A stretch of DNA of 64,000 nt from Flavipsychrobacter stenotrophus (GTDB taxonomy: Bacteria > Bacteroidota > Bacteroidia > Chitinophagales > Chitinophagaceae), in the NCBI RefSeq assembly GCF_002954265.1, contig NZ_PPSL01000003.1, positions 868,001 to 932,000 on the forward strand. Reading direction: 5' to 3'. Below the pieces are notes generated by a model, which saw only the letters and a program-made list of their open reading frames with translations, was not told the DNA's origin and did not search any database. How positions within the stretch are numbered: position 1 is the stretch's first letter; each line of letters starts with the position of its first letter. Below are positions 7,000 to 32,109 of the stretch, in pieces. A program made the position numbers and the translations under genes.

Positions 7000-7121
7000 C
7001 CCGGGGTGTTAACCCCGGGTATAATGAAGCCTAGACTACAAGCCCTGAAAGGGCGGCATAAATAGCGAGGGGTTTCAACCCCTCGACCACGAACAAGTCA
7101 AGACACTAGCCCTGAAAGGGC
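7000..7121. repeat. Cluster of short intergenic palindromes
   Basis: Between purF and the next gene lie CCCGGGGT/ACCCCGGG (7000-7019), GCCCTGAAAGGGC (7042-7054), CGAGGGG/CCCCTCG with loop TTTCAA (7066-7085) and a second GCCCTGAAAGGGC (7109-7121). The GCCCTGAAAGGGC units are each followed by a CATAAAT phrase and look like an interspersed family. Confidence 0.6.
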
Positions 7122-27913: not shown

Positions 27914-28993
27914 TTAGTACTCAGTGCCTTTGTAGTACACCTTGAAGATGCCCTGGCCGATCTGGTAGTTAATGACGTCGTAGTTGAGCTGCCAGTTGGT
28001 GAGATCGGCATTGGTTACGTCATATACTTCGCCTTCAGTAAACAGGCGCAAGGTATTGTTGGTATTGATATAGGCGAGGGAGTTGTATTGTATCAATACA
28101 TTCTCGGGGTAGTAATTCTCCATGTCGGTGAACTCGCCTTTATAAAAAATTTTAAAATAACCTGAAGGGTCTCTGTAGGCTACAATATTATCTACCGCCT
28201 GGTAAGACGGGTTAAAGAAGCCTACCGTTTTTACTGCATCGTTATAGAATATCTTGAAATATCCATCGCTGCTTACAAATGCCACAACATTATCTGCTAC
28301 ATGGTAAGATAGTGGGGGGAAGTTGTCTATTGTAAACGTTTGTCCGTTATGAAATATCTTAAACCTGCGGTCGGCATCTACATAGGCAACCGTGCTACGG
28401 CCTGCTTCAAATGTGCTTACCGGATAGTCTTCCTGATTTAGCTTTACACCTCTGAAGAAGATCTTGAACTGGTTGGCAAAATTATTATAGGCGATGATAT
28501 TGTCTGACAAGCTAAGACCTGATAATACACTGTCCGGTACAAATGCTTCTAACTGCTGTATTTGTCCGTTGTAGTATACCTTATAGTCGCTTTTCATACC
28601 ATCCAGGTACATTACCAGGCTGTCGCCGATGTAATACTGTTCACAGATCGGTGTCAGGTTTTTAACTAGGCCTTTGTCAAATACATTCAGTGATTTCTGG
28701 TTGAGGAAAACAACAAGATTGTCTGTAGCATAGAAGGCATTGGTGAAACCTGCATTTACCTTTTGGGTGGCGTTGTTGTAGTAGATCTTAAAGGTGCGTG
28801 AGTTGTCGAGGTAGGGTATTGCTATGCGGCCGGTTTTAAGCAGCGTTGGCGGCATGTAGTCGATCTTGTGGATCATGCCCTTGTCCCATACCATTAATTC
28901 ATTTTGTTGAGTAACATAGGTAGCATAGGGCTGCGCCAATGCGGTTGTGCAGGAGAGGTATATAGAGAGCAGTACAATAAATATTCGCTGCAT
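27914..28993 (-). CDS. Secreted repeat protein, probable beta-propeller
   Basis: The 359-residue protein has a signal peptide (MQRIFIVLLSIYLSCTTALA). The mature part is made almost wholly of about eight degenerate repeats of 40-48 residues with the core D-N-x-V-A-Y-x-D...FKIFYNG, for example DNVVAFVSSDGYFKIFYND and DNIVAYRDPSGYFKIFYKG. Such repeats fit a beta-propeller exposed outside the cytoplasm. There is no T9SS sorting domain and no lipobox, so a periplasmic site is most likely. Function is unknown. The gene stands alone, downstream of the small-RNA-like elements. Confidence 0.7.
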   Translation of the reverse strand: MQRIFIVLLSIYLSCTTALAQPYATYVTQQNELMVWDKGMIHKIDYMPPTLLKTGRIAIPYLDNSRTFKIYYNNATQKVNAGFTNAFYATDNLVVFLNQKSLNVFDKGLVKNLTPICEQYYIGDSLVMYLDGMKSDYKVYYNGQIQQLEAFVPDSVLSGLSLSDNIIAYNNFANQFKIFFRGVKLNQEDYPVSTFEAGRSTVAYVDADRRFKIFHNGQTFTIDNFPPLSYHVADNVVAFVSSDGYFKIFYNDAVKTVGFFNPSYQAVDNIVAYRDPSGYFKIFYKGEFTDMENYYPENVLIQYNSLAYINTNNTLRLFTEGEVYDVTNADLTNWQLNYDVINYQIGQGIFKVYYKGTEY

Positions 28994-29036
28994 GGAAGGG
29001 GCAAATTTGCTGTGAATATACTAGTTTTCTAAAATA

Positions 29037-29089
29037 AAAAAGCCAGCCTGAGAACAGGCCAGCCCCTATAAACCCTATCACTATGAAAA
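29037..29089 (-). ncRNA. Small-RNA/terminator-like unit, copy 1
   Basis: This 53-base stretch is repeated at 29169-29221 with one difference. Read on the minus strand it ends in the hairpin GCTGGCCTG-TTCT-CAGGCTGGC followed by a T run, a good intrinsic terminator. Two stem pairs are G-U on this strand but would be C-A mismatches on the other, which points to minus-strand RNA. No clear promoter of its own was found. Confidence 0.5.
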
Positions 29090-29168
29090 TCTTTGCAAAC
29101 AGATGGTTTGCGTAATTACTTCAAAGCTTTTACAAAAATTATTTTTTTCAAAACTGAAGAGTTTTTTG

Positions 29169-29221
29169 AAAAAGCCAGCCTGAGAACAGGCCAGCCCCTA
29201 TAAACCCTATCACCATGAAAA
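29169..29221 (-). ncRNA. Small-RNA/terminator-like unit, copy 2
   Basis: It has the same 53-base unit and hairpin, followed by TTTTT. A near-ideal promoter (TTG, 21 bases, TATCTTTG) lies upstream at 29270-29301, so a transcript of about 95-100 nt ending at this hairpin is predicted. It could be a free small RNA or a leader that continues into copy 1 and the repeat-protein gene. Confidence 0.55.
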
Positions 29222-29269
29222 CTTCTTTATGCTGAGAGCTAAATTATTTCGTTGGTTACTTTAACTGTA

Positions 29270-29301
29270 CAAAGATAGGACAGTTTTTATTAGTTGTGCA
29301 A
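29270..29301 (-). promoter_or_regulatory. Strong promoter upstream of the tandem small-RNA-like units
   Basis: On the minus strand TTG (29301-29299) is followed after 21 bases by TATCTTTG (29277-29270), matching both parts of the Bacteroidota promoter consensus. No gene starts within 270 bases downstream. Confidence 0.6.
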
Positions 29302-29363: not shown

Positions 29364-29927
29364 CTAAGCTTTGCCTTTCTTTTTAGGTGAGAAGATGACC
29401 AGCATCCTCTTGCCTTCCATTTTAGGCATAGATTCCAATCCGCCAAACTCTGCCAAACGCTCTGCAAATTTCAGCAACAACAGTTCGCCACGCTCCTGGA
29501 ACATGATCGCACGTCCTTTGAACTGAACATAGCATTTTACTTTATTACCATCCTGCAGGAATTTTTCTGCATGTTTGGCTTTAAAGTCAAAGTCATGATC
29601 ATCTGTATTCGGTGTGAAACGAATTTCCTTTACTTCACTTTGCTTAGCCTTAGCTTTCTGTTCCTTGTCTTTTTTCTTCTTTTCGTAAAGGAACTTTTTG
29701 TAATCGATAAGCTTACAAACGGGAGGTACTGCATTTGGTGAGATCTCCACCAGGTCTACTTCCTGAACTTGCGCCATCTTTATGGCATCAGCTATTGGAT
29801 AGATACCCGGTTCTATATTATCTCCTATAACACGAACCTGTGGAGCTGTTATTTCATTGTTTAAGCGATGTTCGTTTTGTGGTACCCTGGGCCTGAAAAA
29901 TGGTTTACCTTTTGGTCTTTTCTGCAT
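29364..29927 (-). CDS. infC: Translation initiation factor IF-3
   Basis: IF-3 binds the 30S subunit and checks start-codon pairing. The 187 residues show the N-domain (NEHRLNNEITAPQVRVIGDN and KMAQVQEVDLVEISPNAVPPVCKLIDYKKF) and, after a lysine-rich linker, the C-domain with KEIRFTPNTDDHDFDFKAKHAEKFLQDG and VIMFQERGELLL-like strands. It lies downstream of thrS as in many bacteria, but a 16-bp perfect terminator separates them. It has its own promoter, and the usual rpmI and rplT genes do not follow. ATG 29927 gives a short N-terminal extension (QKRPKGKPFFRPRVPQ). Confidence 0.96.
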   Translation of the reverse strand: MQKRPKGKPFFRPRVPQNEHRLNNEITAPQVRVIGDNIEPGIYPIADAIKMAQVQEVDLVEISPNAVPPVCKLIDYKKFLYEKKKKDKEQKAKAKQSEVKEIRFTPNTDDHDFDFKAKHAEKFLQDGNKVKCYVQFKGRAIMFQERGELLLLKFAERLAEFGGLESMPKMEGKRMLVIFSPKKKGKA

Positions 29928-29951
29928 TAATTGATTTTAGAATTTTATTGG

Positions 29952-29985
29952 CAAAAATAAAATATTTGTTTGTTAATTACTCAAA
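29952..29985 (-). promoter_or_regulatory. Promoter of infC
   Basis: On the minus strand TTTG (29985-29982), 22 bases, then TATTTTTG (29959-29952). The box ends 24 bases before the infC ATG. Together with the thrS terminator it makes infC a separate unit. Confidence 0.55.
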
Positions 29986-30093
29986 GCTAATGTATAAAAT
30001 TTTTATTGTTACGGTTTTTACCTAAAGCCTACAGATAATTCTTTATTTCTTAACTAAAACTGTACCTGTTTTCTCATTGAGTATTGTTTATTT

Positions 30094-30128
30094 AAAGAAA
30101 AAGTTCGCATAGTGCGAACTTTTTCTTT
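30094..30128 (-). terminator. Terminator of thrS
   Basis: A 16-bp perfect stem, AAAGAAAAAGTTCGCA with TGCGAACTTTTTCTTT, around the loop TAG, 17 bases past the thrS stop. Confidence 0.8.
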
Positions 30129-30144
30129 AAATCATTAGTCTGTA

Positions 30145-32109
30145 TTAGTTGGCATTCGTTTCTGTTTTCCTCTTTCCCTTCATCTGCTCCTTAACGATAT
30201 TGCGCATTTCGGTAGCGAAGTCAGCTATAGATACGGCACCCTTGTCGCCATCGCCATGTTTGCGCACGGAAACGGTCTGGTTTTCCTGTTCTTTTTCACC
30301 AACAATAAGCATGTAAGGCACCTTCATCATTTCTGTGTCGCGGATCTTACGGCCTATTTTTTCGCTTCTGTCGTCTATTGTAGCGCGTATGTCTTCTGAC
30401 CTGAGTGCAGCAATAACGCTTTTTGCGTATTCGTTGTACTTGTCGCTGATAGGTAACACCTTCACCTGCAGCGGTGCCAGCCAGAAAGGCAGGTTACCTG
30501 CGCAATGCTCCAGCAATACTGCTATGAAGCGCTCCATAGAGCCGAACGGTGCACGGTGTATCATTACCGGGCGCTTGCGGGTATTGTCGCTATCTACGTA
30601 CTCCAGTTCAAAGCGTTCAGGCAGGTTATAATCTACCTGTATAGTACCCAACTGCCATTTACGGCCCAGGGCATCCTTCACCATAAAGTCTAGCTTAGGG
30701 CCGTAGAATGCGGCTTCGCCGTATTCTGTAACTGTCTTCAGTCCCTTTTCTGCGGCGGCTTCAATGATCGCATTCTCAGATGTTTCCCAGTTTTCATCGC
30801 TGCCTATGTATTTGCTGCGGTCTTCCAAGTCGCGTAGAGATATCTGTGCAGTATATTCTGTAAAGCCCAGTGATTCGAAGACGAACAGCACCAGGTCAAT
30901 TACTTTTTTGAACTCATCTTTTACCTGCTCGGGTGTGCAGAACAAGTGGGCATCATCCTGAGTAAAGCCGCGAACACGTGTAAGGCCATGCAACTCTCCA
31001 CTTTGCTCATAACGGTACACTGTACCAAACTCAGCAAGGCGGTAAGGAAGGTCTTTATAAGACTTAGGGGATGATTTGTATATCTCGCAGTGGTGCGGGC
31101 AGTTCATTGGTTTCAGCATGAATTCTTCACCTTCCTGCGGGGTAGTGATAGGGTGGAAACTATCCTTGCCATACTTCTCCCAGTGGCCTGAAGTTACATA
31201 CAACTGCTTGCTACCTATGTGCGGAGTGATAACCGGAAGGTAACCGGTTTCCAACTGCGCTTTCTGTAAAAACTGTTGCAGTCTTTCGCGAAGCATAGCG
31301 CCGTTAGGCAACCATAATGCTAAACCGCTACCTACTTTTTCTGAGAAGGTAAACAATTCCAGCTCCTTGCCTAGCTTGCGGTGGTCGCGCTTCTTGGCTT
31401 CTTCCATCAACAAGATATACTCATCCAGTTCCTTCTGGTTAGGATAAGTAACACCATAGATACGGGTAAGCATTTTGTTCTTTTCATTACCTCTCCAATA
31501 AGCACCGGCAATGTTGGTGAGCTTAACAGCTTTAATGAAACCGGTATTAGGAATGTGCGGTCCACGGCACAGATCGGTGAAGCCGCCCTGTGTGTAGAAA
31601 GTGATGCTGCCATCGTTCAGTCCGTCGATCAGTTCCAGCTTGTACTGGTCCTGCTTTTCGGTGAAATAACTAACTGCATCGGCCTTAGAAACATCCTTAC
31701 GAACGTATTCAGACTTGGTGCCTGCCAATTCCTTCATCTTATTTTCGATCTTCTTCAGATCTTCCTCTGTAATGCTGCGATCGCCCAGGTCAATATCATA
31801 ATAGAAGCCGGTTTCGATAGCAGGGCCAATACCCAGTTTTACGCCCGGGTAAATAGCTTCCAAAGCCTCAGCCATAAGGTGAGCAGAAGAGTGCCAGAAG
31901 GTAGATTTACCTTCTTTGTTGTCCCATGTTAATAATTTCAGCGTAGCATTGGTATTGATGGGGCGGGACGCGTCCCATACTTCACCATTAACTTCTGCTG
32001 CCAGTACCTTACGTGCCAGGCCTTCACTTATTGATTTTGCTATATCTCCCGCTGAAACGCCTGCTTCATATTCGCGTACCGCGCCATCGGGTAAAGTAAT
32101 TTGTATCAT
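30145..32109 (-). CDS. thrS: Threonine-tRNA ligase
   Basis: The 654-residue protein has the full order of bacterial ThrRS domains. A TGS domain covers 1-62 ([17 protein letters not shown]). The editing domain has [11 protein letters not shown] and RGPHIPNTG. The class II core has the zinc-site [10 protein letters not shown] near residue 337, [32 protein letters not shown] (motif 2) and a motif 3 [11 protein letters not shown]. The anticodon-binding domain has [14 protein letters not shown]. No T-box-like leader is seen; a TACCTTTG box lies 23 bases upstream. Confidence 0.97.

Follow-up and report, generated by a model that had tools for sequence, protein, structure and literature searches.

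Base-pairing small RNAs (sRNAs) of the Bacteroidota have been described mainly from Bacteroides thetaiotaomicron, as far as the available parts of PMC11697453 and PMC7366714 go. The closest of them for the present purpose is FopS, which the accessible portion of PMC11697453 presents as existing in 14 copies in that species, with a single-stranded 5' seed followed by a terminator. By binding beside the start codon, FopS blocks the translation of susC mRNAs; the RRM-1 protein RbpB, which binds the 5' part of FopS, relieves this repression; and conservation is reported there within the Bacteroidaceae. Bacteroidota promoters conform to the consensus TTTG / TAnnTTTG, in the form that the available text of PMC7366714 quotes.

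The stretch of Flavipsychrobacter stenotrophus DNA that was analysed (64,000 nt, here called the window) contains a 53-nt unit in two copies, at 29037-29089 and 29169-29221, that are 98% identical, with one mismatch, and whose starts are 132 nt apart. A 23-nt piece of the unit (up to three mismatches allowed) matches at these two places only in the 64,000 nt, and the expectation from 100 shuffles of the window is 0.00 matches. Read on the minus strand, each copy runs from TTTTCAT(A/G)GTGATAGGGTTTATAGGGG through a hairpin into a T run; in RNA form, the unpaired 5' part ahead of the terminator hairpin is UUUUCAU(A/G)GUGAUAGGGUUUAUAGG in both copies. The hairpin, GCUGGCCUG-UUCU-CAGGCUGGC, makes nine pairs on the minus strand only, thanks to two G-U pairs. 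The T run behind it is TTTTTC in the 29169 copy (copy A) and TTTTTTATTTT in the 29037 copy (copy B), the latter being the only one of the two reported by a simple terminator scan. An earlier note on this DNA had claimed such a repeat, with G-U pairs specific to the minus strand and T runs behind: alignment and shuffles bear out the first, direct reading and the pair count the second.

Table 1. Features of the locus and its neighbours (positions in the window)
Feature	Positions	Strand	Basis and remarks
thrS, behind infC	30145-32109	-	ORF
infC, upstream neighbour	29364..29927	-	ORF; InfC in 63 of 137 loci of the sRNA family
Promoter of copy A	29270..29301	-	-33 TTG at 29301-29299, 21 nt, -7 TATCTTTG at 29277-29270
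Predicted sRNA A, ~97 nt	29169..29265	-	44-nt leader, seed, terminator; putative 5' end at 29265
Seed, copy A, TTTTCATGGTGATAGGGTTTATAGGG	29196..29221	-	antisense to ATGAAAA; no or almost no variation across 28 aligned copies, partly by construction, the copies having been found through this core
Terminator hairpin, copy A	29174..29195	-	T run 29173-29169; sequence, pair count, fold
-7-like box of copy B, TCTGTTTG	29096..29103	-	one mismatch to TAnnTTTG
Predicted sRNA B, ~56 nt	29036..29091	-	begins at seed; putative 5' end
Seed, copy B, TTTTCATAGTGATAGGGTTTATAGGG	29064..29089	-	sequence and the same 28-copy alignment
Terminator hairpin, copy B	29042..29063	-	T run 29041-29036; sequence, terminator scan, pair count, fold
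10-bladed beta-propeller protein gene, downstream neighbour	27914..28993	-	PF21734, E 9.1e-139

The promoter of copy A, TTG-N21-TATCTTTG, had been noticed before as carrying both consensus parts, and it does match the Bacteroidota form quoted in the available part of PMC7366714; it was read directly from the sequence, the promoter scan being one for E. coli-type sites only. Promoter spacing and T run set the extent of predicted sRNA A, for which the covarying family provides a further basis. Its predicted fold (z -1.96) is like that of B, plus a longer, weakly paired leader, and B consists of the unpaired 5' part and a 13-pair terminator hairpin (z -2.18). The wider family bears on where the two RNAs would begin. 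Its 184 instances fall into a type A with CATGGTG (116) and a type B with CATAGTG (68), 177 of them entering the analysis of promoter boxes and 175 that of hairpins and codons; in the window, copy A, with its ~44-nt leader, is of the CATGG type and copy B of the CATAG type. Of 66 type B copies, 41 carry TANNTTYR at -15 relative to the core and 18 have none within reach; TANNTTTG lies close upstream in 34 of the 66, against 0.86% of 12684 background windows. Of 111 type A copies, 69 have TANNTTTG upstream (49 at long range, 20 close by) and 42 lack it altogether. These positions suggest that A is made with a leader and that B starts at the seed. A possible second product, mentioned in the earlier note, is thus more than a guess, given the box at a fixed distance in those 41 B-type copies, and is probably a separate ~56-nt RNA from copy B. 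That the two tandem genes are a pair of sRNA genes, both presumably transcribed, we regard on the sequence evidence as very likely. Tandem pairs were collected in 43 cases, with A followed by B in 39 and B by B in four, at spacings of 103-292 nt, and with an identical hairpin in both members of 24. To judge from these comparisons, A and B are an old, syntenic pair of paralogues.

Selection on the hairpin can be followed in 28 aligned copies (24 of them distinct), in which its nine pairs are 99.1% paired, compared with 92.5% in shuffles. Five of the nine pairs have changed on both sides, which 3 of 500 shuffles equal, and the covariation score is 0.388 vs 0.249. Sliding the register leaves only 12.5-50.9% paired; the count of further pair types in the same 28 copies shows no excess (11 vs 11.1 in shuffles). 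Across the 53 distinct hairpins of the 175 instances analysed, 468 of 477 pairs are kept, and codon changes in the minus-strand frame number 108 non-synonymous vs 52 synonymous. Many of these loci were fetched by means of the fixed core, so that conservation of the core is partly a matter of construction; that of the hairpins and flanks is not. Kept pairs together with mostly non-synonymous codon changes argue for selection as RNA and not as protein, and it is as RNA that the minus-strand hairpin is, by its pattern of change, selected.

A covariance model finds eight copies in the genome to which the window belongs (E ≤ 0.01): the window pair, three that cluster on contig C21, and three weaker ones. 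Two copies of this genome (L004 and L006) look degraded and are without a T run. L004 (G000:C13:151443-151496) and a copy from another species (L023, G008:C260) lie behind similar upstream sequence; by analogy they are possibly 3'-end-derived, as FopS-14 is said to be in the available part of PMC11697453. The core pattern (at most one mismatch) occurs in 13 of 59 genomes, this one included; a pattern scan of named genomes lists at least 118 stretches, Taibaiella and Flavipsychrobacter among them. With the model, 91 of 147 genomes of the Chitinophagaceae have matches at E ≤ 0.01, and 27 genomes from 16 genera at E ≤ 1e-10; among 396 genomes sampled evenly from the class, three match at E ≤ 1e-5 (the present genome, another of the Chitinophagaceae, and one weak match elsewhere of 34.6 bits), both searches having been run with stricter filters, at which weak matches are lost. 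Viral contigs hold no exact match to the family. The search of Chitinophagaceae genomes that had been proposed turned up further copies, and these sequences point to a multicopy family present within a group of bacteria of Chitinophagaceae type. The original reading, a small-RNA/terminator unit on the minus strand that has a promoter of its own, remains the best one, in view of the covarying hairpin, the conserved unpaired 5' part, the Bacteroidota box and the additional copies. In the open-licence literature, no published description of this sRNA pair or family was found.

The pair does lie just after infC, whose end at 29364 faces it on the same strand. The usual order of genes is thrS-infC-rpmI-rplT. 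Here that order is split: thrS and infC occupy 29364-32109 of the window, and rplT is on contig C21 (G000:C21:278540-278860), not beside infC. That no gene follows closely, as had been stated, holds for copy A and fails for copy B, since ~45 nt beyond B the propeller gene starts on the same strand. Where InfC is present, it stands upstream of the sRNAs and on the same strand among the loci listed; homologues of the propeller gene stand downstream in most of the listed loci; and the order infC-A-B-propeller gene recurs across genera. In 30 loci behind infC from other genera of the Chitinophagaceae, other genes and no A/B-like pair were found, the place in several being occupied by what we take, by its sequence, to be rpmI.

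The proposed Rfam scan matched no family in this region at gathering score. The FopS model (RF04319) gives 20.6 and 16.8 bits on the window copies against a gathering score of 56, short of membership, and nothing above cut-off in 39 genomes. Among 12 core-carrying genomes, at least one of its sub-threshold matches (E ≤ 1) is a member of the present family in nine, and in seven that member is the best match. The tails beyond the common head align with the FopS tail no better than shuffles do (p 0.56, 0.42). Sub-threshold matches to the L20 leader, the L10 leader, U12 and SL2 were judged to be chance, since they fit a generic hairpin and T run. A FopS-like candidate of 44.1 bits, below the score of 56, comes from another family of the order (L029, G050:C3:156885-156953) and starts AGTTTTCATAGT. 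Elsewhere in the window, an Acido-Lenti-1 RNA (RF01687) is matched at 7041-7085 on the minus strand, between two protein genes, scoring 41.5 bits (gathering score 37), and GCCCTTTCAGGGCT-like hairpins recur in the stretch around it.

Other weak FopS matches led to a second, sister version, with the seed pattern TTTTCATAGGATAWGGTTWAA, which occurs (at most two mismatches) in 55 of 117 genomes of the Chitinophagaceae, its reversed control giving nine matches in all. In the form TTTTCATAGGATAAGGTTTAA (at most one mismatch) it is found in 49 of the 95 Chitinophagaceae genomes that lack our version and in 1 of the 22 that have ours (a covariance match at E ≤ 1e-10), so that the two versions tend to replace each other; G123 carries both. 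The anatomy is the same as in ours: of 41 sister copies examined, 40 have a run of at least four T, and in 27 a TANNTTYR box lies no more than 30 nt away. One genome, with ~15 matches, has four sister copies in a row at 194-nt steps (L352, G130:C1:4555494-4556096). The FopS model scores 30.1-31.9 bits in three of ten sister loci scanned; in that scan FopS is accompanied by eight further matches below threshold, of which some have the better E-values. The tail of the sister version does align with that of FopS (p 0.010) and with that of our copy B (p 0.044), and less well with that of copy A (p 0.11). The sister version resembles FopS more than ours does, and a chain from FopS through the sister to our version is, on these alignments, plausible.

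As a whole, the locus is best explained, in our judgement with somewhat more in favour than against, by A and B being multicopy trans-acting sRNAs, FopS-like, that repress at start codons; for start-codon repression in the manner of FopS, argued by analogy, the balance is even. Both RNAs would be transcribed, with the seed held unpaired ahead of a Rho-independent terminator. The UUUUCAU head would pair with AUGAAAA at mRNA start codons and keep ribosomes from binding, in the way FopS acts on susC mRNAs. The single RRM-1 protein of the genome might bind or counteract the A and B RNAs, and A and B, because promoter and leader differ, may respond to different signals.

Searches for targets relied on gene starts from a simple custom caller, in this genome as in G130. 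ATGAAA begins 16.5% of 593 called genes. In 864 kb, in-register duplexes of -19 kcal/mol or lower form at 24 of 552 real ATGs and at 39 of 1770 internal ATGs (p 0.007); seeds with shuffled tails still give 22.6 +/- 7.2 against the real 24 (40 shuffles), so that the excess at start codons is due to the head alone. Bulk duplex energies for the 593 called genes in the 864 kb are no better at starts than inside genes, and in this bulk test fully shuffled seeds equal the real ones in 14 of 60 cases for A and 22 of 60 for B. The antisense core (up to three mismatches) has three non-sRNA places in the genome, one of them opening a frame of ~74 codons, and its reversed control one. Signal-like proteins make up 15 of the top 33 vs 155 of 519 (p 0.049; within ATGAAA genes, p 0.29). 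In G130, where 30 of the 56 SusC matches were examined, the sister seed shows no overall preference for SusC starts (p 0.16); of four thresholds, only -12 brings p down to 0.03. Seven PKD or PorP/SprF-like genes of G130, picked by regular expressions, give an uncorrected p of 0.012, with tail-shuffled seeds shifting likewise (-2.34 +/- 1.19 vs -4.13), and three such genes in our genome give p 0.49; as targets they are a lead only. The sister search also yields eight loci with a near-complete seed complement at an ATG that opens at least 60 codons, a number that proves nothing, since the reversed control makes nine matches in the 117 genomes; some of these eight genes, in two genera, are presumably for PorP/SprF-like proteins. 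At L349, L354 and L355 the start region is nearly fully complementary to the sister seed, and the genes look to us PorP/SprF-like, which makes this gene type a possible target class of the sister version. That no signal specific to the tail emerges would mean either that targets are few, or that the calling of gene starts and the energy model are not refined enough, or that the tail serves a protein.

A protein may instead be what the conserved 5' part mainly binds, an RRM-1 protein for example, the copies then titrating it and pairing with mRNA being secondary. Conservation extends over the whole 26-nt core, yet the start-codon signal is in the head only; a single RRM_1 protein, of 131 aa, is encoded in the genome, and RbpB binds the 5' part of FopS (PMC11697453, in its accessible portion). 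Such a decoy is nevertheless unlikely in our estimation: the head, an exact antisense of AUGAAAA, is the part in common with the sister version and FopS, which pairing explains best.

The remaining explanations fare worse still. Strong hairpins with T runs behind infC are what one would see if ordinary terminators merely ended infC and a short spurious transcript, with no function in trans, but terminators need neither a conserved unpaired sequence of 26 nt nor promoter boxes of their own nor copies at other loci, and we think this improbable. It is more doubtful again that the units are a cis-acting attenuator or leader of the propeller gene: that gene follows in many of the syntenic loci, but it has two terminators standing before it, and family copies occur at other places in the genome (contigs C21, C13 and C4). 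The ribosomal protein L20 leader is found near infC in other bacteria. Here Rfam leaders stay far below cut-off, the L20 leader (RF00558) at 21.8 vs 58.7 bits, short of membership, with rplT on another contig and with a generic hairpin and T run as what it has in common with our units. A mobile or REP-like element that is dispersed and has no role in regulation would account for the several copies per genome and for the degraded ones, but hardly for two types that can be told apart and that keep the same order from genus to genus, for compensatory changes in the hairpin or for the lack of an exact match in viral contigs, and is given very little credence. A small peptide gene we have rejected as next to impossible. 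The minus strand of copy A does have an open hydrophobic frame, MVIGFIGAGLFSGW, but its changes are mostly non-synonymous, some versions of it contain stops, and B copies have no ATG there; on the plus strand, coding from the ATGAAAA of each unit, which had been named as what might better explain the conservation, is contradicted by frames with a median of 12 codons in 183 instances.

Returning to trans-acting sRNAs that repress at start codons, one may ask how far they extend. It is conceivable, although we incline slightly against it, that sRNAs directed against start codons make up a superfamily extending far beyond the Bacteroidaceae, with FopS as only one branch of it. The UUUUCAU head would be constant, and lineage-specific tails would stand in for one another: GUGAUAGGGUUUAUAGGGG in our version, GGAUAAGGUUUAAUGGUUAAUGG in roughly half of the remaining Chitinophagaceae genomes sampled, and in Bacteroides that of FopS. 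The two paralogues behind infC, with different leaders and promoters, would then provide this clade with one seed and two inputs. If the RNAs are transcribed and FopS-like, start-codon repression by paralogous sRNAs also exists in environmental Bacteroidota, in a genome with one SusC over the cut-off, and the replacement of one seed version by the other would amount to a natural experiment on the joint change of seeds and targets. The A/B pair is small and syntenic and hence directly testable.

Several of the paralogous sRNAs Qrr, LhrC and OmrA/B depend on Hfq. They belong to other phyla and are likened to ours by description, as paralogous sRNAs with a common seed (named in the available part of PMC11697453). 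GibS of Bacteroides (RF04182) uses an unstructured seed in its 5' part to act at start codons, according to what is accessible of PMC7366714; unlike our sRNAs it is much longer and has two seeds, and its model scores 23.3 vs 115 bits here, short of membership. From FopS our sRNAs differ in the seed beyond the head and in their arrangement as an A/B pair after infC; the B box in the window has its one mismatch, and A has a leader between box and seed. Since a single SusC exceeds the family cut-off in this genome, the role of FopS at polysaccharide utilization loci (PULs) is not simply transferable. What is common to both is the UUUUCAU head antisense to AUGAAAA, an apparently unpaired 5' seed with a terminator behind it (PMC11697453, available part, for FopS), a TAnnTTTG-type promoter near the seed in type B, an RRM-1 protein gene in the same genome, and the multicopy habit, with eight copies here and the 14 of B. 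thetaiotaomicron.
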